A stretch of DNA of 64,000 nt from Clostridia bacterium (lineage in GTDB: Bacteria > Bacillota > Clostridia > Christensenellales > Aristaeellaceae). The translations under genes and the position numbers were made by a program. The notes beneath the pieces are model-generated. The model made no database searches and had not been told where the DNA came from. It saw nothing but the letters and a program-made list of their open reading frames with translations. Shown piece after piece: positions 823 through 43,606 of the stretch. Every line of letters starts with the position of its first letter. Position 1 is the stretch's first letter. The stretch covers positions 62,001-126,000 of the forward strand of contig JAFXBE010000019.1 of NCBI GenBank assembly GCA_017516765.1, given 5' to 3'.

Positions 823-2247
823 TCATTCTCCGGTGTCTGCCCGATACTTCTCTACTGCTTCGGTACTGCTGGCGTGAACGGCAGCTTTTCCGTATTTCTC
901 CACCAGCCCCACATCCTTATCTCCGTGGGTCAGGCAGCCTGCGCCGCCGATGCAGCCCCCGTTGCATGCCATGCCCTCGATGAAGTTTTCCTTCAGCACA
1001 TTCTTGTCTTTTTTCAGAAGTGCGATGCGGCAGGCCTCGATACCGTCGCATACGACAGGATTCAGAATGAAGTCGGAATGCTTTTCTTCCAGCACGTGGG
1101 CAACCGCTTGCGCCAGACCGCCGCTGCGGGCGAAAATGCGTCCGTAGAAGCTGGCATCGTCAAGCGGTTCTTCGGGAAGCGCGTTCAGCACAATTCCGCG
1201 GCTGTCCAGCCACGCCTGCAATTCTTCAAAGGTGAGCACACAGTCCACATAAGGCTTTACATTTGCCTTTTGAGCTTCCTGCTTTTTGGCGGTGCAGGGC
1301 CCGATGAAGATCACCTTTGCGTCTGGCTCCAGAGTCTTGATGGCTTTGGCAAGTGCAGCCATGGGGGAAGGATTGTGGCTGATGTGTGCAGCAAGCTGGG
1401 GAAAGCTCTTTTCGATATAGTTCACAAATGCAGGACAGCAGGAAGAGGTAAGGAAGCCTTTCTCCTCCAGCTCCTTGGCTTCTTCCAGCGCTACCATATC
1501 TGCGCCGAGAGCGGCTTCGATCACCTTGGTAAAGCCCATACGCTTCAGGGCGGTTACCACCTGTCCCACCTTGGCATGGGTAAACTGGGCAGAGATGGCA
1601 GGGGCGACCACAGCATAAATGTTACTGATCCGGTTGCGGAGCAAACGAATGGCATCCAGCAGATAACTCTTGTCCTGGATCGCACCAAAGGGACAATGGT
1701 ACATGCAAGCGCCGCATTGGATGCATTTGCTGTCGTCAATGGCTGCAACGTGGTTTTCGCCCTGGGTGATGGCCTTTACCTTGCATGCGCGCTCACATGG
1801 ACGGGTATGGTTCTGGATCGCACTGTAAGGGCAGACAGTGGCGCACTTGCCGCAATTGACGCATTTGTCCGGATCGATGCAGGCACGGTGCCGCTCGTCA
1901 AAGGTAATGGCATTCTGCTTGCAGACCGTGGAGCAGCGGTGGGCGAGGCAGCCCCGGCAATCCGGCCCTACCGTGTAACCGCTGATGGGGCATTCGTCAC
2001 AGGCAATACCGATCACTTCTACCACATTGGGGTTGGTTTTGTCGCCGCCCATGGCGATCTTTACACGCTCGGCTACGATGGCGCGCTCTTTATAGATGCA
2101 GCATCGCAGCTCGCTGCGTGGGCCGGGGGAGATGATCTTGGGAATATCCAGATAGCAGTCCTGCAGATTATCCGCATAGGCATGGGATGCGACTTCCTTC
2201 AGCACTTTGTATTTCAGCTTCTGCACAAAGGTATCGAAGATCTGCAT
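823..2247 (-). CDS. Monomeric [FeFe] hydrogenase, group B-like, with multiple Fe-S clusters
   Basis: 474 aa. Cys-rich N-terminal half: a cysteine cluster at C97, C100, C105, C109; two ferredoxin-type 4Fe-4S motifs (C129/132/135/139 and C175/178/181/185); extra cysteines at C83, C86, C151, C155. The C-terminal half is the H-cluster domain. All four H-cluster cysteines are present, in TSSCCPAF (267-274), IGPC (C318) and MACNGGC (C428, C432). The variant motifs (TSSCCPAF, IGPCTAKK, GGCIGGAG rather than TSCCPGW, MPCTAKK and GGCINGGG) resemble the poorly characterised group B enzymes rather than classical group A. Expected to be cytoplasmic and to couple reduced ferredoxin to proton reduction, or to sense H2. 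A perfect AGGAGGT lies 6 bases before the ATG. It is monocistronic, with convergent and codirectional neighbours both insulated by terminators. Confidence 0.88.
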   Translation of the reverse strand: MQIFDTFVQKLKYKVLKEVASHAYADNLQDCYLDIPKIISPGPRSELRCCIYKERAIVAERVKIAMGGDKTNPNVVEVIGIACDECPISGYTVGPDCRGCLAHRCSTVCKQNAITFDERHRACIDPDKCVNCGKCATVCPYSAIQNHTRPCERACKVKAITQGENHVAAIDDSKCIQCGACMYHCPFGAIQDKSYLLDAIRLLRNRISNIYAVVAPAISAQFTHAKVGQVVTALKRMGFTKVIEAALGADMVALEEAKELEEKGFLTSSCCPAFVNYIEKSFPQLAAHISHNPSPMAALAKAIKTLEPDAKVIFIGPCTAKKQEAQKANVKPYVDCVLTFEELQAWLDSRGIVLNALPEEPLDDASFYGRIFARSGGLAQAVAHVLEEKHSDFILNPVVCDGIEACRIALLKKDKNVLKENFIEGMACNGGCIGGAGCLTHGDKDVGLVEKYGKAAVHASSTEAVEKYRADTGE

Positions 2248-22039: not shown

Positions 22040-22108
22040 GGCACATATCGTTTCGAACCGCATAGCATGCAGTATCCTCCCCATGGAACAATGGAAAGGA
22101 GCAAAGGC

Positions 22109-26062: not shown

Positions 26063-26154
26063 CCCCCCCGAATTCACGCTGTTATTGCCGAAGGCGGAAT
26101 AAAGAAAAACGGTCTTGCATACATCCTATTATCAAGCATAATGGGGGATAGTGT

Positions 26155-28278
26155 ATGCAGACCGAATTACACGTACGAAAAAGGATACTGGGGCTGCTGC
26201 TCCTGTTTGTGCTTTTGTTCTTTTTGCTGTTTCTGCGCATTGTGCTGCTGACAACAGTCCGTTCTGCCGCGCTTACAGAGCGCGGCATTCGTCAATGGAC
26301 ACGCGAGGGGACTGTTTTTGCACGCAGGGGCAGTATATTGGATGTTCACGGAAACACGCTGGTGATGAGTGCAACCGCCTATATCGTCAGCGCTGATCCG
26401 CGAAAGATCACGGACGCGTCGGCGTTCGCCGACCTGATAGCACCCGTTCTTTCTATGAGCGGCGAAACTGTACGGAGCAAGATCGCTGATCGCACAAAGG
26501 CCTCTGTTACGCTGAAACGTCAGGTGTCAGCGGAAACAGCCGGCCGGTTGCGCAATCTGCAGTTGAGTGAGGATCCTCAGACAGCTGCGCTGGCCAAAGC
26601 GCTTCTGTTTGATGAAGATGTCCGCAGGGTATATCCCTATGGGGCGATGCTTGTACAGACCTTGGGATTGACGAATGTGGACAATGTCGGGCAGTCGGGA
26701 TTGGAGCAACAGTACGACAGTCTGCTGCGGGGCGTAGCCGGACAGATCCTTCGAACGGTAGACGGTCACAACCGTACCGTATACGACAGCGGGAATCTGT
26801 ACATCGAACCGCAGAATGGAAACGATCTGGTGCTTACGATCGATGCGACCGTTCAGCAGATCTGCGAAAAGGCGATGCGGGAATGCTATCAGGTAAACAA
26901 GGCGCAGGCGGTGCATGTGATAGCGATGGATCCGTTTACGGGAGCAATCCTTGCCATGTGCTCCAAACCGGATTATGATCCCAACGATCCGCCACGCGGC
27001 GAAGCGGATGCATTGAACGACCTGATGCGCATCCGTTTGATCTCCGACGCATACGAACCGGGTTCCACCTTCAAGATCCTTACGGCAGCTGCTGCGATCG
27101 ACAGTGGTATTACCCGGCCGGAGGAGGGGTTTTACTGTTCCGGCAAGATCAAAGTGGATGGGGATACCATCCGCTGCTGGGGGAATCCGCACGAAGCGGA
27201 AACCATGGAGCAGGCGCTGCAGAACAGCTGTAATCCTGTGTTTGTCGAGCTGGCGCTTCGTATGGGCACCGATACGTTTTATGCCTATCTGAAGGCTTTT
27301 GGTCTCGGAAGCAAAACCTCTGTTGACTTGCAGGGGGAGGGAAGTGGTATACTAATACCGCAAAGGTCTGTCAAAAACGTGGATCTGGCAAGGATCGGTT
27401 TTGGACAAAGCGTTGCGGTAACGCCGCTTCAGTTGCTCACGGCGGCCTGTTCCGTTATCAACGGCGGGCGTCTGATGCGGCCTTATCTGCTCAAGGAAGT
27501 GCTGTCGCCGGAAGGCGATGTTCTTCTGCGCACGCAACCGAAGGTCGTTTCCCGGCCGGTATCGGAGGAAACATCCAATACCATGCGTTTGCTGCTTGAA
27601 AAAGTGGTCAGTATCGGCGGCGCAAAAAACGCGGGGATCGAGGGCTTCCGCATCGGCGGCAAGACCGGCACCGCGCAGGTCTATAAGAACGGACGCATTG
27701 TGAAGGACGTGCACATCGGTTCCTTCCTCGGTTTCGCACCTGCCGACGATCCCAGAATCGCACTGCTGGTCATCGTGGATGAGGCGGATACCCCTGTGGA
27801 TTACGGCGGAACCACTGCTGCCCCCTTTGCTCGACAAATCTTTGCGGATGTGTTACCTTATCTGTGCGGTTCTCCGCTTACGGACAGCGAACAGATCCTG
27901 ATCCCGGAGGTTCTTGGGCAGCCGCTTTGGAAAGCCTCCGAGCAGCTGACTGCCTTGGGCTTTACCGTACTTACCGACGGCGCTGCCGCGAGCGATGAAG
28001 TGCGCGAGCAGATGCCGGCAGGCGGCGCAATGCTGCCAAAGGGCGGACAGATCATGCTGTTTGCGGGTCAGAGCGATGCGCAGGAGGCACAGACTCTGGT
28101 TTGCGTCCCATCTGTAAAAGGGTTCTCTGTTGCCGATGCGGCATCTTTGCTCGGGCAGCGGGAACTGGAACTGGAGATCAACGGAAACGGCTTCGCTGTG
28201 GAGCAGGCTCCTGCAGCCGGAACGTTTGTTTCTCCCGGAACCACGATAAACGTAGAATTTGCGTTTCCAAATCCATAA
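26155..28278 (+). CDS. Class B penicillin-binding protein (FtsI/SpoVD type) with two PASTA domains
   Basis: 707 aa. A single N-terminal TM (about 9-33), a dimerisation/pedestal domain, then the transpeptidase domain with SxxK at S304 (GSTFK), SxN at SCN 358-360 and KTG at 503-505 (GGKTGTAQ). Two C-terminal PASTA modules lie at about 580-637 and 645-707. Cross-links septal peptidoglycan with FtsW. In Bacillus, PBP2B has two PASTA modules and SpoVD one, so a vegetative FtsI role is slightly favoured. GGGGA upstream. Confidence 0.94.
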   Translation: MQTELHVRKRILGLLLLFVLLFFLLFLRIVLLTTVRSAALTERGIRQWTREGTVFARRGSILDVHGNTLVMSATAYIVSADPRKITDASAFADLIAPVLSMSGETVRSKIADRTKASVTLKRQVSAETAGRLRNLQLSEDPQTAALAKALLFDEDVRRVYPYGAMLVQTLGLTNVDNVGQSGLEQQYDSLLRGVAGQILRTVDGHNRTVYDSGNLYIEPQNGNDLVLTIDATVQQICEKAMRECYQVNKAQAVHVIAMDPFTGAILAMCSKPDYDPNDPPRGEADALNDLMRIRLISDAYEPGSTFKILTAAAAIDSGITRPEEGFYCSGKIKVDGDTIRCWGNPHEAETMEQALQNSCNPVFVELALRMGTDTFYAYLKAFGLGSKTSVDLQGEGSGILIPQRSVKNVDLARIGFGQSVAVTPLQLLTAACSVINGGRLMRPYLLKEVLSPEGDVLLRTQPKVVSRPVSEETSNTMRLLLEKVVSIGGAKNAGIEGFRIGGKTGTAQVYKNGRIVKDVHIGSFLGFAPADDPRIALLVIVDEADTPVDYGGTTAAPFARQIFADVLPYLCGSPLTDSEQILIPEVLGQPLWKASEQLTALGFTVLTDGAAASDEVREQMPAGGAMLPKGGQIMLFAGQSDAQEAQTLVCVPSVKGFSVADAASLLGQRELELEINGNGFAVEQAPAAGTFVSPGTTINVEFAFPNP

Positions 28279-33416: not shown

Positions 33417-33481
33417 CGCCTTTTCACACAATCCGGTGCATGGCATAGGATGGTGCATGCAATGCTACCGGAGGTGAAAGG

Positions 33482-34753
33482 ATGGATATATTTCGCATCC
33501 GAGGGGGAAGAAAACTTGGCGGAGAGTGGACGGTACATACTGCCAAAAATGCAGTCCTGCCCATTATGGCTGCATCGGTGCTTACTTCCGAAAGAACGTT
33601 TCTGGAGGATTGTCCGCTTCTGAGCGATGTGGAGCATATGGGGGAGATCCTGCGCAGACTTGGATGCAGCGTAGTCCGCAATAGGCGCACGCTGGAGATC
33701 GATCCGCAGGGGATGCATTCTTATGAAATGCCGGATGGTCTGGCTAAGAAAATACGCTCCTCCATTTTTCTGTTGGGTCCTATTCTGACGCGTTTTCACC
33801 GCGCTGCTGTCACTTTTCCCGGCGGATGCGAGATCGGGCTTCGCCCCATCGATCTGCACCTGAGCGGTCTGCGTCAGCTGGGGGTACAAATCCGCGAAGA
33901 ATGTGGTGTCATCCATTGCGAGGGCAGCCGAATGCGAGCGGGCAGCGTACACTTCGATTATCCCAGTGTAGGCGCAACCGAAAATGTGATGATGGCGGCA
34001 GCTCTGCTGCCGGGGCAATCGGTGCTGAACAATGCAGCCCGCGAGCCCGAGATCGTGGATCTGCAGAATTTTCTGAACAGGATGGGTGCAAAGGTACGGG
34101 GTGCCGGTACACACGCCATTGTAATTGACGGTGTTACTGCTCTGCACGGTGTAGAATACCGTCCCATGGCAGACCGTATCGTGGCGGGCACCATGCTGGC
34201 TGCGGCGGCGATCACCGGTGGCACGGTCTGTCTGCACCGCGTTCCTGCAGGGGATATGCATGCGGTGTTTTCCAAACTCAGGGAGATGGATTGCGAGCTG
34301 ACGCTCAGCGGCGATACGGCTGTGATCAGTGCCCCGCAGCGACTGAATGCGTTTGCGCAGCTGCAGACCCAGCCCCATCCCGGTTTCCCGACAGACATGC
34401 AGGCACAGCTGCTGGCAATGGCTACGGTTGCCAAGGGTACATCCGTTTTGGTGGAGAATGTATTCGAGAACCGATACGGGCACGCAGGAGACCTGAACCG
34501 CATGGGCGCCGATGTGCTGATCAACGGTCGTACGGCGGTTGTAAAGGGGGTAAGCGGTCTGTACGGTTCGCGGGTAACCGCACGGGATCTGCGGGGAGGC
34601 GCAGCGCTTGCGCTTGCCGGGCTCAAAGCCGGCGGTGAAACCGTGATCGAGCAGGCGCAACTGATCGATCGTGGATATGAACAGATGGAAACAGCACTAT
34701 CTTCGCTTGGAGCAGAGATTGTGCGGGAACATATTACACACGAGGACACATAA
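33482..34753 (+). CDS. murA: UDP-GlcNAc 1-carboxyvinyltransferase
   Basis: 423 aa. EPSP-synthase-like fold with K22/N23 in HTAKNAVLPIMAAS and the catalytic Cys116 in PGGCEIGLRPIDLHL, so fosfomycin-type alkylation is possible. PDGL at 84-87 and the DLRGGAALALAGL substrate-binding segment are present. Catalyses the first committed step of peptidoglycan synthesis. Its placement between ftsW and ftsQ, where murG/murC are common, is a known variant in Clostridia. GGAGGTG upstream. Confidence 0.96.
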   Translation: MDIFRIRGGRKLGGEWTVHTAKNAVLPIMAASVLTSERTFLEDCPLLSDVEHMGEILRRLGCSVVRNRRTLEIDPQGMHSYEMPDGLAKKIRSSIFLLGPILTRFHRAAVTFPGGCEIGLRPIDLHLSGLRQLGVQIREECGVIHCEGSRMRAGSVHFDYPSVGATENVMMAAALLPGQSVLNNAAREPEIVDLQNFLNRMGAKVRGAGTHAIVIDGVTALHGVEYRPMADRIVAGTMLAAAAITGGTVCLHRVPAGDMHAVFSKLREMDCELTLSGDTAVISAPQRLNAFAQLQTQPHPGFPTDMQAQLLAMATVAKGTSVLVENVFENRYGHAGDLNRMGADVLINGRTAVVKGVSGLYGSRVTARDLRGGAALALAGLKAGGETVIEQAQLIDRGYEQMETALSSLGAEIVREHITHEDT

Positions 34754-39789: not shown

Positions 39790-39828
39790 TTGACAAGCGG
39801 GGGACAATCTTGTACCATCATAGTACAA
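39790..39828 (+). promoter_or_regulatory. GH65 gene promoter with overlapping inverted repeat
   Basis: Perfect -35 TTGACA (39790-39795), 17-base spacer, -10 TACCAT (39813-39818). TTGTAC (39810-39815) and GTACAA (39823-39828) form an exact dyad over the -10, and ACAAG/CTTGT (39793-39797, 39809-39813) a second one. A repressor site is likely. Confidence 0.6.
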
Positions 39829-39856: not shown

Positions 39857-42115
39857 ATGAGCTATCAGATTCATCCTTGGAAGGTCGTAGAGACTTCTCT
39901 GGATCCCAAGCATATGCGTTTGTCCGAAAGTCTTACCTCTACCGGCAACGGTTATATGGGCATGCGGGGCAATTTCGAGGAGGATTACTCCGGCGATACC
40001 CATCTGGGCACCTATATCGGCGGTGTCTGGTTCCCCGACAAGACCCGTGTGGGCTGGTGGAAGAACGGTTACCCGCAGTATTTTGGTAAAGCCATCAACT
40101 GCGTACGCCTCAACGGTATTCATGTTGAGATCAACGATCAGCCGCTGGATCTTTCTCAGGCCGATGTGCTGGATTTCTACCGGGAACTGGATATGCAGAC
40201 CGGTGTATTCCTGCGCCGTTTTACCGTCTGGACCCCCGACGGCAAGGTCACCATTGAGGCAGAACGCTTCGTTTCGCTTGCGCAGAAAGAGCTGCTTGCC
40301 ATTTCCTATTCCGTTACCCCCGAAAATGAAGCCAAGGTGATTCTGCGTCCCTATCTTGACGGCAACGTAAAGAATCTGGACAGCAACTATGAAGAAACCT
40401 TCTGGGAGATGCTGCAGGAAGAGGGTACCGAAGATGCGCTTGCCCTGCTTACCCGCACCAAGCCCAATCCCTTTGATGCGCCCCGTTTCACTGTTGCTGC
40501 GGCAATGAGCTGCTGGGCGGACGGGCTGGAAATGATCGACCGCAGGCTGGAAGAAGGCTACGTAGAAAAAACTTACGGTGGTATCGTTCCCGCAGGCGAG
40601 AAGGTAACGCTGGAGAAGTATGTGCTGGTTTTTACCGACCGCGACTGGGAGGATAACCTGATCATTACCATGGCGCTCAAGGCTGCAGCCCGGGCACGTG
40701 AAGTCGGCTATGCCGATCTGCGCCAGGAGCACGCCCAGACCTGGAAGCAGCGTTGGGCAACCTGCGATGTAACTGTGAAGGGCGACGACGCCGCCCAGCA
40801 GGGCATCCGCTTTAATCTTTTCCAGTTGCTGAGCACCTACACCGGTGATGATGCCCGGCTGAACATTGGTCCTAAGGGTTTTACCGGCGAAAAGTACGGC
40901 GGCGCTACCTACTGGGATACCGAAGCCTACTGCCTGCCGGTGTACATGTCGGTTGCCGGTCAGGATGTGGCGCGTCAGCTGCTGATGTACCGCTATCTGC
41001 AGCTTGACGGGGCATATTTCAACGCACGTCAGCAGGGTTTGAAGGGCGCGCTTTATCCGATGGTTACCTTTACCGGCATTGAGTGCCACAACGAGTGGGA
41101 GATCACTTTTGAAGAGATCCACCGTAACGGTGCGATCGCGCATGCCATTTTCAACTACACCACCTATACCGGCGATGAGGAATACATCCGGAACGAAGGT
41201 CTGGATGTGCTCTGCGGTATTGCGCGTTTCTACACCGACCGAACCCATTTCTCCAAGCGCAAAGGGCTGTATATGATCCATGGCGTAACCGGCCCCAACG
41301 AATACGAGAACAATGTGAATAACAACTGGTATACCAACCGGATCGCTGCATGGAGCATCGGCTATTTCTGCGATTGGGCAGAAAAGGTGGATGAACAGCG
41401 GCGCGAGAAACTGGGTATTACTGCCGATGAGATCGCTCACATGCGCGATGTGGTCGCACGTATGTATTATCCCACCGATGATGAATTGGGCATCTTCGTG
41501 CAGCATGATACCTTTATGGATAAGGAACTGATGAGCGCGGCCGACCTGCCCGCGGATCAGCGTCCCATCAACCAGCACTGGTCGTGGGATCATATCCTTC
41601 GCAGCTGCTTCATCAAGCAGGCGGATGTGCTGCAGGGACTTTATTTCCTCAACCACCTGTACACCAAAGAAGAGATCAAGCGCAACTTCGATTTCTACGA
41701 ACCCATGACGGTGCACGAAAGCAGCCTGTCGCCCTGTGTACACAGCATTCTGGCTGCGCAGCTCGGGTATCACGATAAGGCGGTAGAGATGTACCAACGC
41801 ACGGCGCGTCTGGATCTGGACAACATCAATAACGACACTGAAGATGGTCTGCACATTACCAGCATGGCGGGCAGCTGGCTGGCCATGGCTCATGGTTTTG
41901 CCGGCATGCGTACGGTAGACGGTCTCACACTCAGCCCCTTCCTGCCGGAAGCATGGCAGGGTTACGGCTTCCAGTTCAACTATCGCGGGCGTATTCTCCG
42001 GCTGGAAGTGGATCGGGAACAGGCTGTCGTTGAACTGCTTTCCGGCGAGGCGCTGGAGATGACCCTCTGCGGTGAAAAACTGACTCTGAAGGATCGGATC
42101 ACACATCGATTCTGA
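39857..42115 (+). CDS. Glycoside hydrolase family 65 phosphorylase (maltose phosphorylase-like)
   Basis: 752 aa from the ATG at 39857, with AAAGGAG 10 bases upstream. N-terminal beta-sandwich, helical linker, (alpha/alpha)6 barrel and C-terminal jelly roll, the usual GH65 order and length. The general acid Glu482 lies in GVTGPNEYENNVNNNWYTN, the form typical of maltose phosphorylase; kojibiose and trehalose phosphorylases carry variants. It would convert an alpha-glucosyl disaccharide and phosphate to beta-glucose 1-phosphate and glucose in the cytoplasm. No beta-phosphoglucomutase gene is adjacent. Confidence 0.92.
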   Translation: MSYQIHPWKVVETSLDPKHMRLSESLTSTGNGYMGMRGNFEEDYSGDTHLGTYIGGVWFPDKTRVGWWKNGYPQYFGKAINCVRLNGIHVEINDQPLDLSQADVLDFYRELDMQTGVFLRRFTVWTPDGKVTIEAERFVSLAQKELLAISYSVTPENEAKVILRPYLDGNVKNLDSNYEETFWEMLQEEGTEDALALLTRTKPNPFDAPRFTVAAAMSCWADGLEMIDRRLEEGYVEKTYGGIVPAGEKVTLEKYVLVFTDRDWEDNLIITMALKAAARAREVGYADLRQEHAQTWKQRWATCDVTVKGDDAAQQGIRFNLFQLLSTYTGDDARLNIGPKGFTGEKYGGATYWDTEAYCLPVYMSVAGQDVARQLLMYRYLQLDGAYFNARQQGLKGALYPMVTFTGIECHNEWEITFEEIHRNGAIAHAIFNYTTYTGDEEYIRNEGLDVLCGIARFYTDRTHFSKRKGLYMIHGVTGPNEYENNVNNNWYTNRIAAWSIGYFCDWAEKVDEQRREKLGITADEIAHMRDVVARMYYPTDDELGIFVQHDTFMDKELMSAADLPADQRPINQHWSWDHILRSCFIKQADVLQGLYFLNHLYTKEEIKRNFDFYEPMTVHESSLSPCVHSILAAQLGYHDKAVEMYQRTARLDLDNINNDTEDGLHITSMAGSWLAMAHGFAGMRTVDGLTLSPFLPEAWQGYGFQFNYRGRILRLEVDREQAVVELLSGEALEMTLCGEKLTLKDRITHRF

Positions 42116-42120
42116 CAACA

Positions 42121-42149
42121 GCACAGAAAGACGCCTCCTGCATAGGATG
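42121..42149 (+). promoter_or_regulatory. Possible sigma-K-like promoter of dpaAB
   Basis: GCACA (42121-42125), 15 bases, CATAGGATG (42141-42149), approximating the sigma-K pattern (AC at -35, CATAnnnT at -10). spoVFAB is sigma-K dependent in Bacillus. Weak consensus, so tentative. Confidence 0.35.
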
Positions 42150-42181
42150 CCATATCGGCAACCGGCAGGAGGTGTTTTTTT
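42131..42181 (+). terminator. Terminator-like hairpin that contains the dpaA ribosome-binding site
   Basis: ACGCCTCCTGC (42131-42141) pairs over 11 bp, with one G-U pair, with GCAGGAGGTGT (42165-42175), followed by T7 (42175-42181). It would terminate the GH65 transcript. The 3' arm is also the AGGAGGTG Shine-Dalgarno of dpaA, whose TTG start begins at the end of the T-tract. An inner TGCC/GGCA helix lies at 42148-42160. Confidence 0.75.
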
Positions 42182-43019
42182 GAAGGCTGTTCTGGCAGGC
42201 GGGGATCGGCGTATGGAGCTGACGCGAGAACTACTCATCGGTCGAGGGCATACTGTGCATTGGCTCCGAAACGACTGGGATCATCAATGGCAGATGTTGC
42301 TGCCGCAGGCGAGCACGCTGCTTCTACCATATCCGTACGCTCTGAAGGAAGGGGTAGTACCGGGTTTGGAAAATGGGGGAGAGGGCTGCGTGGAAACATT
42401 GATGGAGAAGCTGCGGCCCGGCACCCTGATCATGTCGGGGGCAGGACTCGGAGAGCGAATCGCCGCTCTTGCCAATGCACGGGGGCTGCGTCTGCAGCGG
42501 TATGACGATGATCCGATTTTCTTACAGCGTAATGCAGAAATCTCGGCAGAAGCGGCAATCAACGTTTTGATGGCGAAAACAGACCGTGTTCTGGATGAAC
42601 AGCGTATCCTTTTGATGGGCTACGGAGTTTTTGGGCGCGCGATCGCATTGCGCCTCAAGGCATTGGGGGCCCGTGTATGGGTTGCTGCCCGGCGTAAGGC
42701 TCAGCAGCATACAGCCATCTGTGACGGTATGAGAGCGATAGGCTTGGAACAGATCCCGGACATTGCCCCGGGAATGGATGCTGTGCTCAATACCATACCG
42801 GCTGTGGTGCTTGGGACGGAGCAGCTGAAGTGCTTTTCAGAGACAACACTGTTTCTGGAATTGGCAAGCCCGCCATATGGGATCGATCTGCCGTCTGCGG
42901 CTTCGATGGCATTGACGGTGGAACTGCTTCCGGGACTTCCATCGAAATATGCACCGCTTTCGGCTGCGCGCGCTCTGTGTGAAACGATCCTGAAACGGTT
43001 CGAGGAGGGATGGGTATGA
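42180..43019 (+). CDS. dpaA: Dipicolinate synthase subunit A
   Basis: 279 aa from a TTG at 42180, 5 bases after AGGAGGTG; the protein then starts KAVLAGGDRRMELTRELL, like SpoVFA. The NAD(P)-binding Rossmann motif is GYGVFGRAIALRLKALGARV in the middle. With subunit B it converts a dihydrodipicolinate-pathway intermediate to dipicolinic acid in the mother cell, the calcium-chelating core compound of spores. Its stop overlaps the dpaB start (ATGA), so the two subunits are translationally coupled. Confidence 0.93.
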   Translation: MKAVLAGGDRRMELTRELLIGRGHTVHWLRNDWDHQWQMLLPQASTLLLPYPYALKEGVVPGLENGGEGCVETLMEKLRPGTLIMSGAGLGERIAALANARGLRLQRYDDDPIFLQRNAEISAEAAINVLMAKTDRVLDEQRILLMGYGVFGRAIALRLKALGARVWVAARRKAQQHTAICDGMRAIGLEQIPDIAPGMDAVLNTIPAVVLGTEQLKCFSETTLFLELASPPYGIDLPSAASMALTVELLPGLPSKYAPLSAARALCETILKRFEEGWV

Positions 43020-43606
43020 AGAAAACAACAGTCGGTTTTGCCATGACCGGTTCTTTCTGCACGTTTGATGCTGTTTTGGCGCAAATGCGGGAACTGGTTC
43101 GCCGGGATTATGATGTGATCCCTATCCTGTCCTATCACGCAGCGCAGTTGGATACGCGCTTTATGGAGGCGGCGCACCTTCATCGGGAGCTGAAGAGCAT
43201 CACCGGGCGCGATGCGATCCAGACACTTCAGCAGGCAGAACCCATCGGTCCGGAAAAGATGACGGATATCTATCTGCTGGCTCCCGCTACCGGTAACACG
43301 ATCGCAAAGCTGGTCAACGGCATATTCGATACCCCTGCCCTGCTTGGCGCAAAGAGCCATCTGCGGAACGACAGACCGCTGGTCGTGGCGGTTTCCACCA
43401 ATGACGCGTTAAGCTCCGCAGCCCAGAATATCGGGCGTTTGCTGACCTGGCGAAATGTATACATGGTACCGTACAGGCAGGATCATGCCCTGAAAAAACC
43501 CCGTTCGCTTGTGGCGGATTTTACCCTTATCCCTAAAACGATACAGTCGGCTTTGTGCGGTGTTCAGCTTCAGCCGATCGTATGCGCACCGGAAGGGCTG
43601 CGCTGA
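43016..43606 (+). CDS. dpaB: Dipicolinate synthase subunit B
   Basis: 196 aa from the ATG at 43016, with GAGGAGGG upstream; an ATG at 43010 is inside that site. A flavoprotein-like (HFCD/UbiX family) fold with VGFAMTGSFCTFDAVLAQM, PATGNTIAKLVNGI and a late VAVSTNDALS. Partner of DpaA (SpoVFB of Bacillus). Marks the organism as a spore former. Followed by a clear terminator. Confidence 0.93.
   Translation: MKKTTVGFAMTGSFCTFDAVLAQMRELVRRDYDVIPILSYHAAQLDTRFMEAAHLHRELKSITGRDAIQTLQQAEPIGPEKMTDIYLLAPATGNTIAKLVNGIFDTPALLGAKSHLRNDRPLVVAVSTNDALSSAAQNIGRLLTWRNVYMVPYRQDHALKKPRSLVADFTLIPKTIQSALCGVQLQPIVCAPEGLR

Follow-up and report, generated by a model that had tools for sequence, protein, structure and literature searches.

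The window, by which the whole 64,000-nucleotide stretch of DNA that was analysed is meant, belongs to a lineage of gut Clostridia known from metagenome assemblies. Its GH65, dpaA, dpaB, murA and spoVD-type genes and the hairpins in front of the last three of these types (dpaA, murA and spoVD) lie on the plus strand. The gene for dipicolinate synthase subunit A, dpaA, occupies positions 42180-43019 and starts with TTG (NF006162, 117.6 bits; TIGR02853, 104.4 bits; both under the curated cut-offs). It is followed at 43010-43606 by dpaB, the gene for subunit B, which passes one of its two NCBIfam cut-offs (NF006161, 253.9 bits, over its cut-off). The co-directional upstream neighbour, at 39857-42115, is a GH65 glycoside hydrolase/phosphorylase gene (NF010380, 1166 bits) and is presumed to be the source of read-through transcription into dpaA. 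SigA-like boxes, TTGACA-N17-TACCAT, precede it at 39790-39818, and such matches are no commoner than in shuffled sequence. Both sigK and sigE genes are present in the window's genome, the sigK copy at a contig end.

A strong hairpin at 42126-42180 stands directly before dpaA, only about 10 nt after the GH65 stop codon. Its 5' arm, GAAAGACGCCTCCTGC (42126-42141), is complementary to the Shine-Dalgarno (SD) sequence of dpaA, and its 3' arm, GCAGGAGGTGTTTTTT (42165-42180), holds that sequence, AGGAGG (42167-42172), 7 nt from the TTG start codon (42180-42182). The core of 11 bp, in which 42131-42141 is paired with 42165-42175, is followed by seven T residues (42175-42181) that would form the tail of a terminator and at the same time space the SD from the start codon; in relatives a run of 3-7 T stands close behind the stem. 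The predicted fold of 42100-42200 has an energy of -48.1 kcal/mol, compared with -25.1 +/- 3.1 kcal/mol in 200 dinucleotide shuffles, none of which was as low (z = -7.5). An 11-bp stem and T7 with the SD in the 3' arm had been reported in a preliminary description of this DNA, and both the sequence and the fold bear this out. The TTG start is indeed at the end of the T-tract, as was also reported, but it takes up the last two T residues and begins at the second-last rather than at the last. An intrinsic terminator, as a G+C-rich stem and then a U-tract, is recognisable in the 11-bp core and T7 (the T-run is short in some relatives); a simple terminator scan, which admits loops of 3-8 only, did not list the hairpin. 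An ATG at 42147, in the loop, was considered as the start of dpaA and rejected, its frame not being conserved (out of frame or stop-separated in 10 of 17 genomes).

In C. difficile, dpaA is under SigK control, the SigK -35 element is AC and the -10 element is of the CATA type, and the -10 elements of SigE and SigK are very similar (PMC3789822). Boxes like those of SigK, which the preliminary description had placed at the hairpin, were found to span 42123-42148. They consist of AC at 42123-42124, outside the hairpin, then 16 nt, and then CATAGGAT at 42141-42148, in the top of the 5' arm and the loop, a spacing that matches the search pattern AC-N15-GCATANNATG. In a genus-level group of 17 genomes, the window's included, CATAnnAT is present at this place in all 17 and AC at its exact position in 15, so that AC-N16-CATAnnAT with SigK spacing is found at dpaA in 15/17 genomes; in L006 the AC is shifted by one base. 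Transcription is predicted to start in the apical loop, at 42152-42156, as judged by the distance to the -10 element, and both the use of SigK and the start positions at dpaA are modelled on C. difficile promoters (PMC3789822). The SD is paired with sequence 5' of this predicted start, and a promoter whose -10 element (42141-42148) lies between the arms would, as far as sequence can tell, yield an RNA that lacks the 5' arm. Most of the Clostridia examined (L047-L110, L151-L216) have a CATAnnnT or AATAnnnT box some 25-45 nt 5' of dpaA, which suggests that dpaA leaders are generally very short. Elsewhere (L222, about 1460-1590, reverse strand), a SigK-like -35 element was seen by eye to overlap the 3' arm of a terminator-like hairpin before a short FeoA-like ORF.

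Conservation of the arrangement in relatives had been named beforehand as a check. The element was found directly before dpaA in 17/17 genomes of the group, each time as a hairpin with the SD in its 3' arm and the -10 element between the arms. A co-directional frame ends 61-92 nt 5' of dpaA in each of the 17, and the C-terminal residues of these frames are mostly GH65-like, as judged by eye. DpaA itself is only 37-53% identical to the window's protein across the group, yet the element is kept. A covariance model of the element (R1) gave one strong match per genome, all at dpaA (62-84 bits), and the remainder scored about 35 bits or less. These weaker matches, which were read in part only, were rejected as extra copies: among the 13 loci checked, a SigK-like box with an SD proved to be dpaA on the opposite strand, save for one unrelated match. 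The stem cells of the dpaA alignment are 99.5% paired, compared with 93.0% in shuffles and 43-66% when the partners were slid by 1-3 columns. Sixteen stem cells are changed on both sides, with 4.8 expected, and the covariation score was above that of all shuffles (0/500); kinship of the sequences can inflate such shuffles, the slid controls retain relatedness, and three pairs have true double changes.

The cost of opening the initiation region was predicted for the read-through RNA and for the gene's own short RNA, the latter taken to start 11-15 nt downstream from the first base of the -10 element. In the read-through RNA of dpaA (17 genomes), the median unpaired probability of the SD core was 0.000 and the median cost of opening from SD to start was 20.2 kcal/mol, which agrees with the earlier proposal that the ribosome-binding site would be sequestered in such an RNA. 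A transcript begun inside the hairpin had been expected to lack the 5' arm. The predicted short RNA does lose the entire arm, with a median SD unpaired probability of 0.40 and a median opening cost of 5.7 kcal/mol, and is thus about 14 kcal/mol easier to open. Residual structure is retained by the short RNA where the 3' arm is G+C-rich, and it is not negligible (SD unpaired as low as 0.11). The median opening cost of 38 SD-preceded open frames of the window, a control set in which dpaA, murA and some antisense frames are also counted, was 7.6 kcal/mol.

A pattern search of the same genome for SigK boxes and an SD matched the window at 33443-33474, between ftsW and a copy of murA in the dcw cluster. 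This copy (33482-34753; TIGR01072, 482 bits) is one of three in the genome, and three murA paralogues are found in the genus. It is preceded by a multi-part hairpin (33418-33481) with the SD GGAGGTG, present in 17/17 genomes of the genus, inside which lie the SigK-type boxes AC (33426-33427) and CATAGGAT (33444-33451); AC-N16-CATAnnAT falls within an SD-involving hairpin in all 17. A conserved TTTTCAC covers the -35 element and pairs with the SD side, and the inner stems vary in sequence while pairing holds within each genome. From the murA alignment RNAalifold recovered the outer stem alone, and no double changes in it, since MAFFT misaligns the inner stem. The median opening cost was 13.8 kcal/mol in the long RNA and 6.5 kcal/mol in the short RNA (17 genomes), and in several genomes pairing of the SD core is incomplete (an unpaired probability of up to 0.60, in L244). 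Orthologues of murA from other genera of the family show a related architecture built from different stems, most clearly L276 and L279 and less clearly L278, L280 and L281. The other matches of the pattern search, apart from dpaA and murA, were set aside as mostly chance or as sporulation-like genes without a sequestering hairpin. At 22043-22069 of the window, SigK-like boxes immediately follow a ysxC-type GTPase gene and precede a short ORF, and no SD-hiding hairpin accompanies them; this site is a counter-example to the rule or has no real gene behind it, and the rule is not universal.

The third case came from a listing of the window's most closed initiation regions and concerns a spoVD/ftsI-type penicillin-binding protein gene starting at 26155 (26155-28278; best NCBIfam match TIGR02214 spoVD_pbp, 581.8 bits, under the cut-off of 688). 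A hairpin at 26097-26164 includes both its SD, GGGGGA, and its start codon, and was found at 13 of 14 genus loci, the window counted. SigE-type boxes are ATA (26099-26101) and CATACATC (26118-26125), and a SigE-like ATA / CATACA promoter within a hairpin of SD and start codon is present in the window and in 12 of 13 relatives. The element is weak in L309, where 34/100 shuffles were as high, and absent in G011 (L315). The median opening cost was 17.2 kcal/mol in the long RNA and 6.3 kcal/mol in the short RNA. There is further pairing between the -10 region, TGCATACA, and the region of the start codon, TGTATGCA.

Outside the genus, 107 dpaA loci with a usable -10 box were compared, a strong stem being defined as an uninterrupted SD stem with an energy of at most -10 kcal/mol whose 5' arm ends at the -10 element or above it. 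The orientation of upstream genes was scored by amino-acid log-odds, as longest-ORF calls were unreliable owing to antisense ORFs. Strong stems were found at 4/6 loci with a co-directional gene within 110 nt, at 5/57 divergent loci and at 5/44 others. The difference between co-directional and divergent loci (Fisher p = 0.0028) is indicative only, the thresholds having been taken post hoc from the genus, the starts chosen partly by SD strength and the loci being related. At L095 the score was undecided, yet an Hsp20-like frame lies upstream and the stem is strong; counting this locus gives 5/7 co-directional. The upstream proteins, identified by eye, are an M16 peptidase (L029), a dUTPase (L094), Hsp20 (L095) and a ThrE-type transporter (L100), and because these differ, GH65 itself is not essential to the arrangement. 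Hairpins of the form TCCCCC...GGGGGA with a T-run, of other sequence, surround a CATAnnAT box at dpaA in L029 (440-505, reverse strand), L094 (2930-3003) and L095 (2740-2817). At L079 a SigE/SigK-like sigma factor gene ends 72 nt before dpaA, upstream of 2983, and a 7-bp CTTTCTT/AAGAAAG pairing surrounds a -10-like box.

These results suggest that the dpaA element serves as a latch on the translation of read-through RNA, built round a sporulation promoter that bypasses it, and on the evidence of sequence comparison and folding models we consider this reading likely. It is suggested by the 5' arm itself, since this fills a promoter spacer that is normally unconstrained. The RNA that reads through from GH65 would contain both arms, and the U-tract could terminate much of it; in the RNA that escapes, the SD of dpaA would be locked in the stem, so that growing cells would make no DpaA. 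Late in sporulation, RNA polymerase with SigK would start within the hairpin loop in the mother cell, and its transcript, without the 5' arm, would have a free SD, from which dpaA and then dpaB could be translated. The start site, the use of SigK, read-through from GH65, termination and translational silence are the parts of this reading that we infer. The interpretation put forward in the preliminary description is thereby supported, at the level of sequence and model. With somewhat better than even confidence, we further propose that such promoter-in-hairpin latches recur in the lineage for mother-cell genes behind or inside vegetative operons (spoVD and murA in dcw, dpaA behind GH65, with SigE/SigK-type promoters), where the choice of start site alone would decide translation.

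The alternative that survives best is that the dpaA hairpin is a mere intrinsic terminator of GH65, overlapped with the SD for compactness, so that sequestration has no function of its own. A stem and T-tract do lie 3' of the GH65 stop codon in nearly all of the genomes, with T7 in the window. However, the T-run is just 4 long in L003, L008, L010 and L016 with the stem intact, and L092 and L100, which lie outside the genus, have SD stems at dpaA without a T-run. Moreover, neither the murA nor the spoVD element has the T-tract of an intrinsic terminator, as would be expected, because the downstream dcw genes must be transcribed onward and these elements must let transcription pass. The comparable elements without a T-tract make a translation block, and not termination alone, look like the shared function, and termination by itself is in our judgement an improbable explanation.

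If transcription started further upstream, the hairpin would belong to the leader of the dpaA mRNA and could regulate it as an attenuator or riboswitch, and expression platforms do have strong, conserved stems that combine features of a terminator with those of an SD. Only about 10 nt are available between the GH65 stop codon and the hairpin, however, and the conserved AC and CATA boxes indicate a start in the loop. No aptamer-like conserved part was seen in the genus alignment of the element, and a search of Rfam gave no family at the gathering threshold, the best matches being far below it; a leader of this kind is very unlikely. Equally doubtful is a palindrome that works as DNA, as a repressor operator or as a cruciform over the SigK -10 element. 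Although the palindrome is centred on the promoter, its stem sequences differ among dpaA, murA and spoVD and among genera, and the SD is retained in the 3' arm. The non-Watson-Crick stem cells at dpaA are 13 G-U, no A-C and one G-G; as G-U in the sense RNA is A-C in the other strand, selection on the stem appears, from the alignment, to act on the sense transcript rather than on a DNA palindrome. Finally, the pairing could be fortuitous, a purine-rich SD meeting a pyrimidine-rich promoter spacer; such spacers often pair with GGAGG and give weak stems of a few bp at many dpaA loci. This explanation is largely refuted by the compensatory changes and by shuffling only the part 5' of the predicted dpaA start, which reached the observed cost in 0/100 shuffles in 16/17 genomes and in 4/100 in one, and has next to no likelihood left.

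The latch reading has several parallels. In riboswitch sequesterer-terminators one stem both terminates transcription and hides the SD; the dpaA element differs in having no aptamer and in being released via another promoter, not by a ligand. In IS10-type fold-back inhibition, transcripts from outside fold and hide the transposase start, while the element's own transcript does not; IS10 is a mobile element, whereas dpaA is a developmental gene. In the leaders of phage T4 gene e (lysozyme), soc, 49 and I-TevI, a hairpin in the long early RNA conceals the ribosome-binding site; gene e has late promoters a short way upstream, and the late RNA made from them is without the 5' strand and is translated well (PMC3014915). 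The logic of hiding and bypass is the same here, but T4 uses late promoters for the timing of phage lysis, whereas host sporulation sigma factors would be used here, and at dpaA there is in addition a U-tract, which provides a terminator tail and at the same time the SD spacer. In B. subtilis, sigG (spoIIIG) lies behind spoIIGA-sigE, and a hairpin of 20+ bp, which cannot form in RNA from sigG's own promoter, has been proposed to block read-through translation (PMC5942855). That case concerns a forespore gene with a SigF/SigG promoter, while the present ones are mother-cell genes of SigK/SigE type behind vegetative genes, with three cases in one window, support from covariation and a version with a T-tract. 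The latch logic is therefore already known from T4 gene e and proposed for sigG; the novelty here is that it recurs at genes of the mother-cell type which follow vegetative operons or lie within them, that at dpaA it is combined with the tail of a terminator, and that comparative evidence speaks for it. A limited literature search found no paper on this lineage or on its dpaA, murA and spoVD genes.

The arrangement suggests that the dcw-cluster copy of murA, and perhaps the spoVD-type protein as well, is sporulation-specific in this lineage. If the reading is correct, a cellular developmental programme makes repeated use of a trick known from the late genes of T4, and the presence of unexpressed sporulation genes inside essential vegetative operons would be explained. 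The sequence signature, a sporulation -10 element between the arms of an SD-hiding hairpin, could then be used to find such genes in uncultured spore formers.
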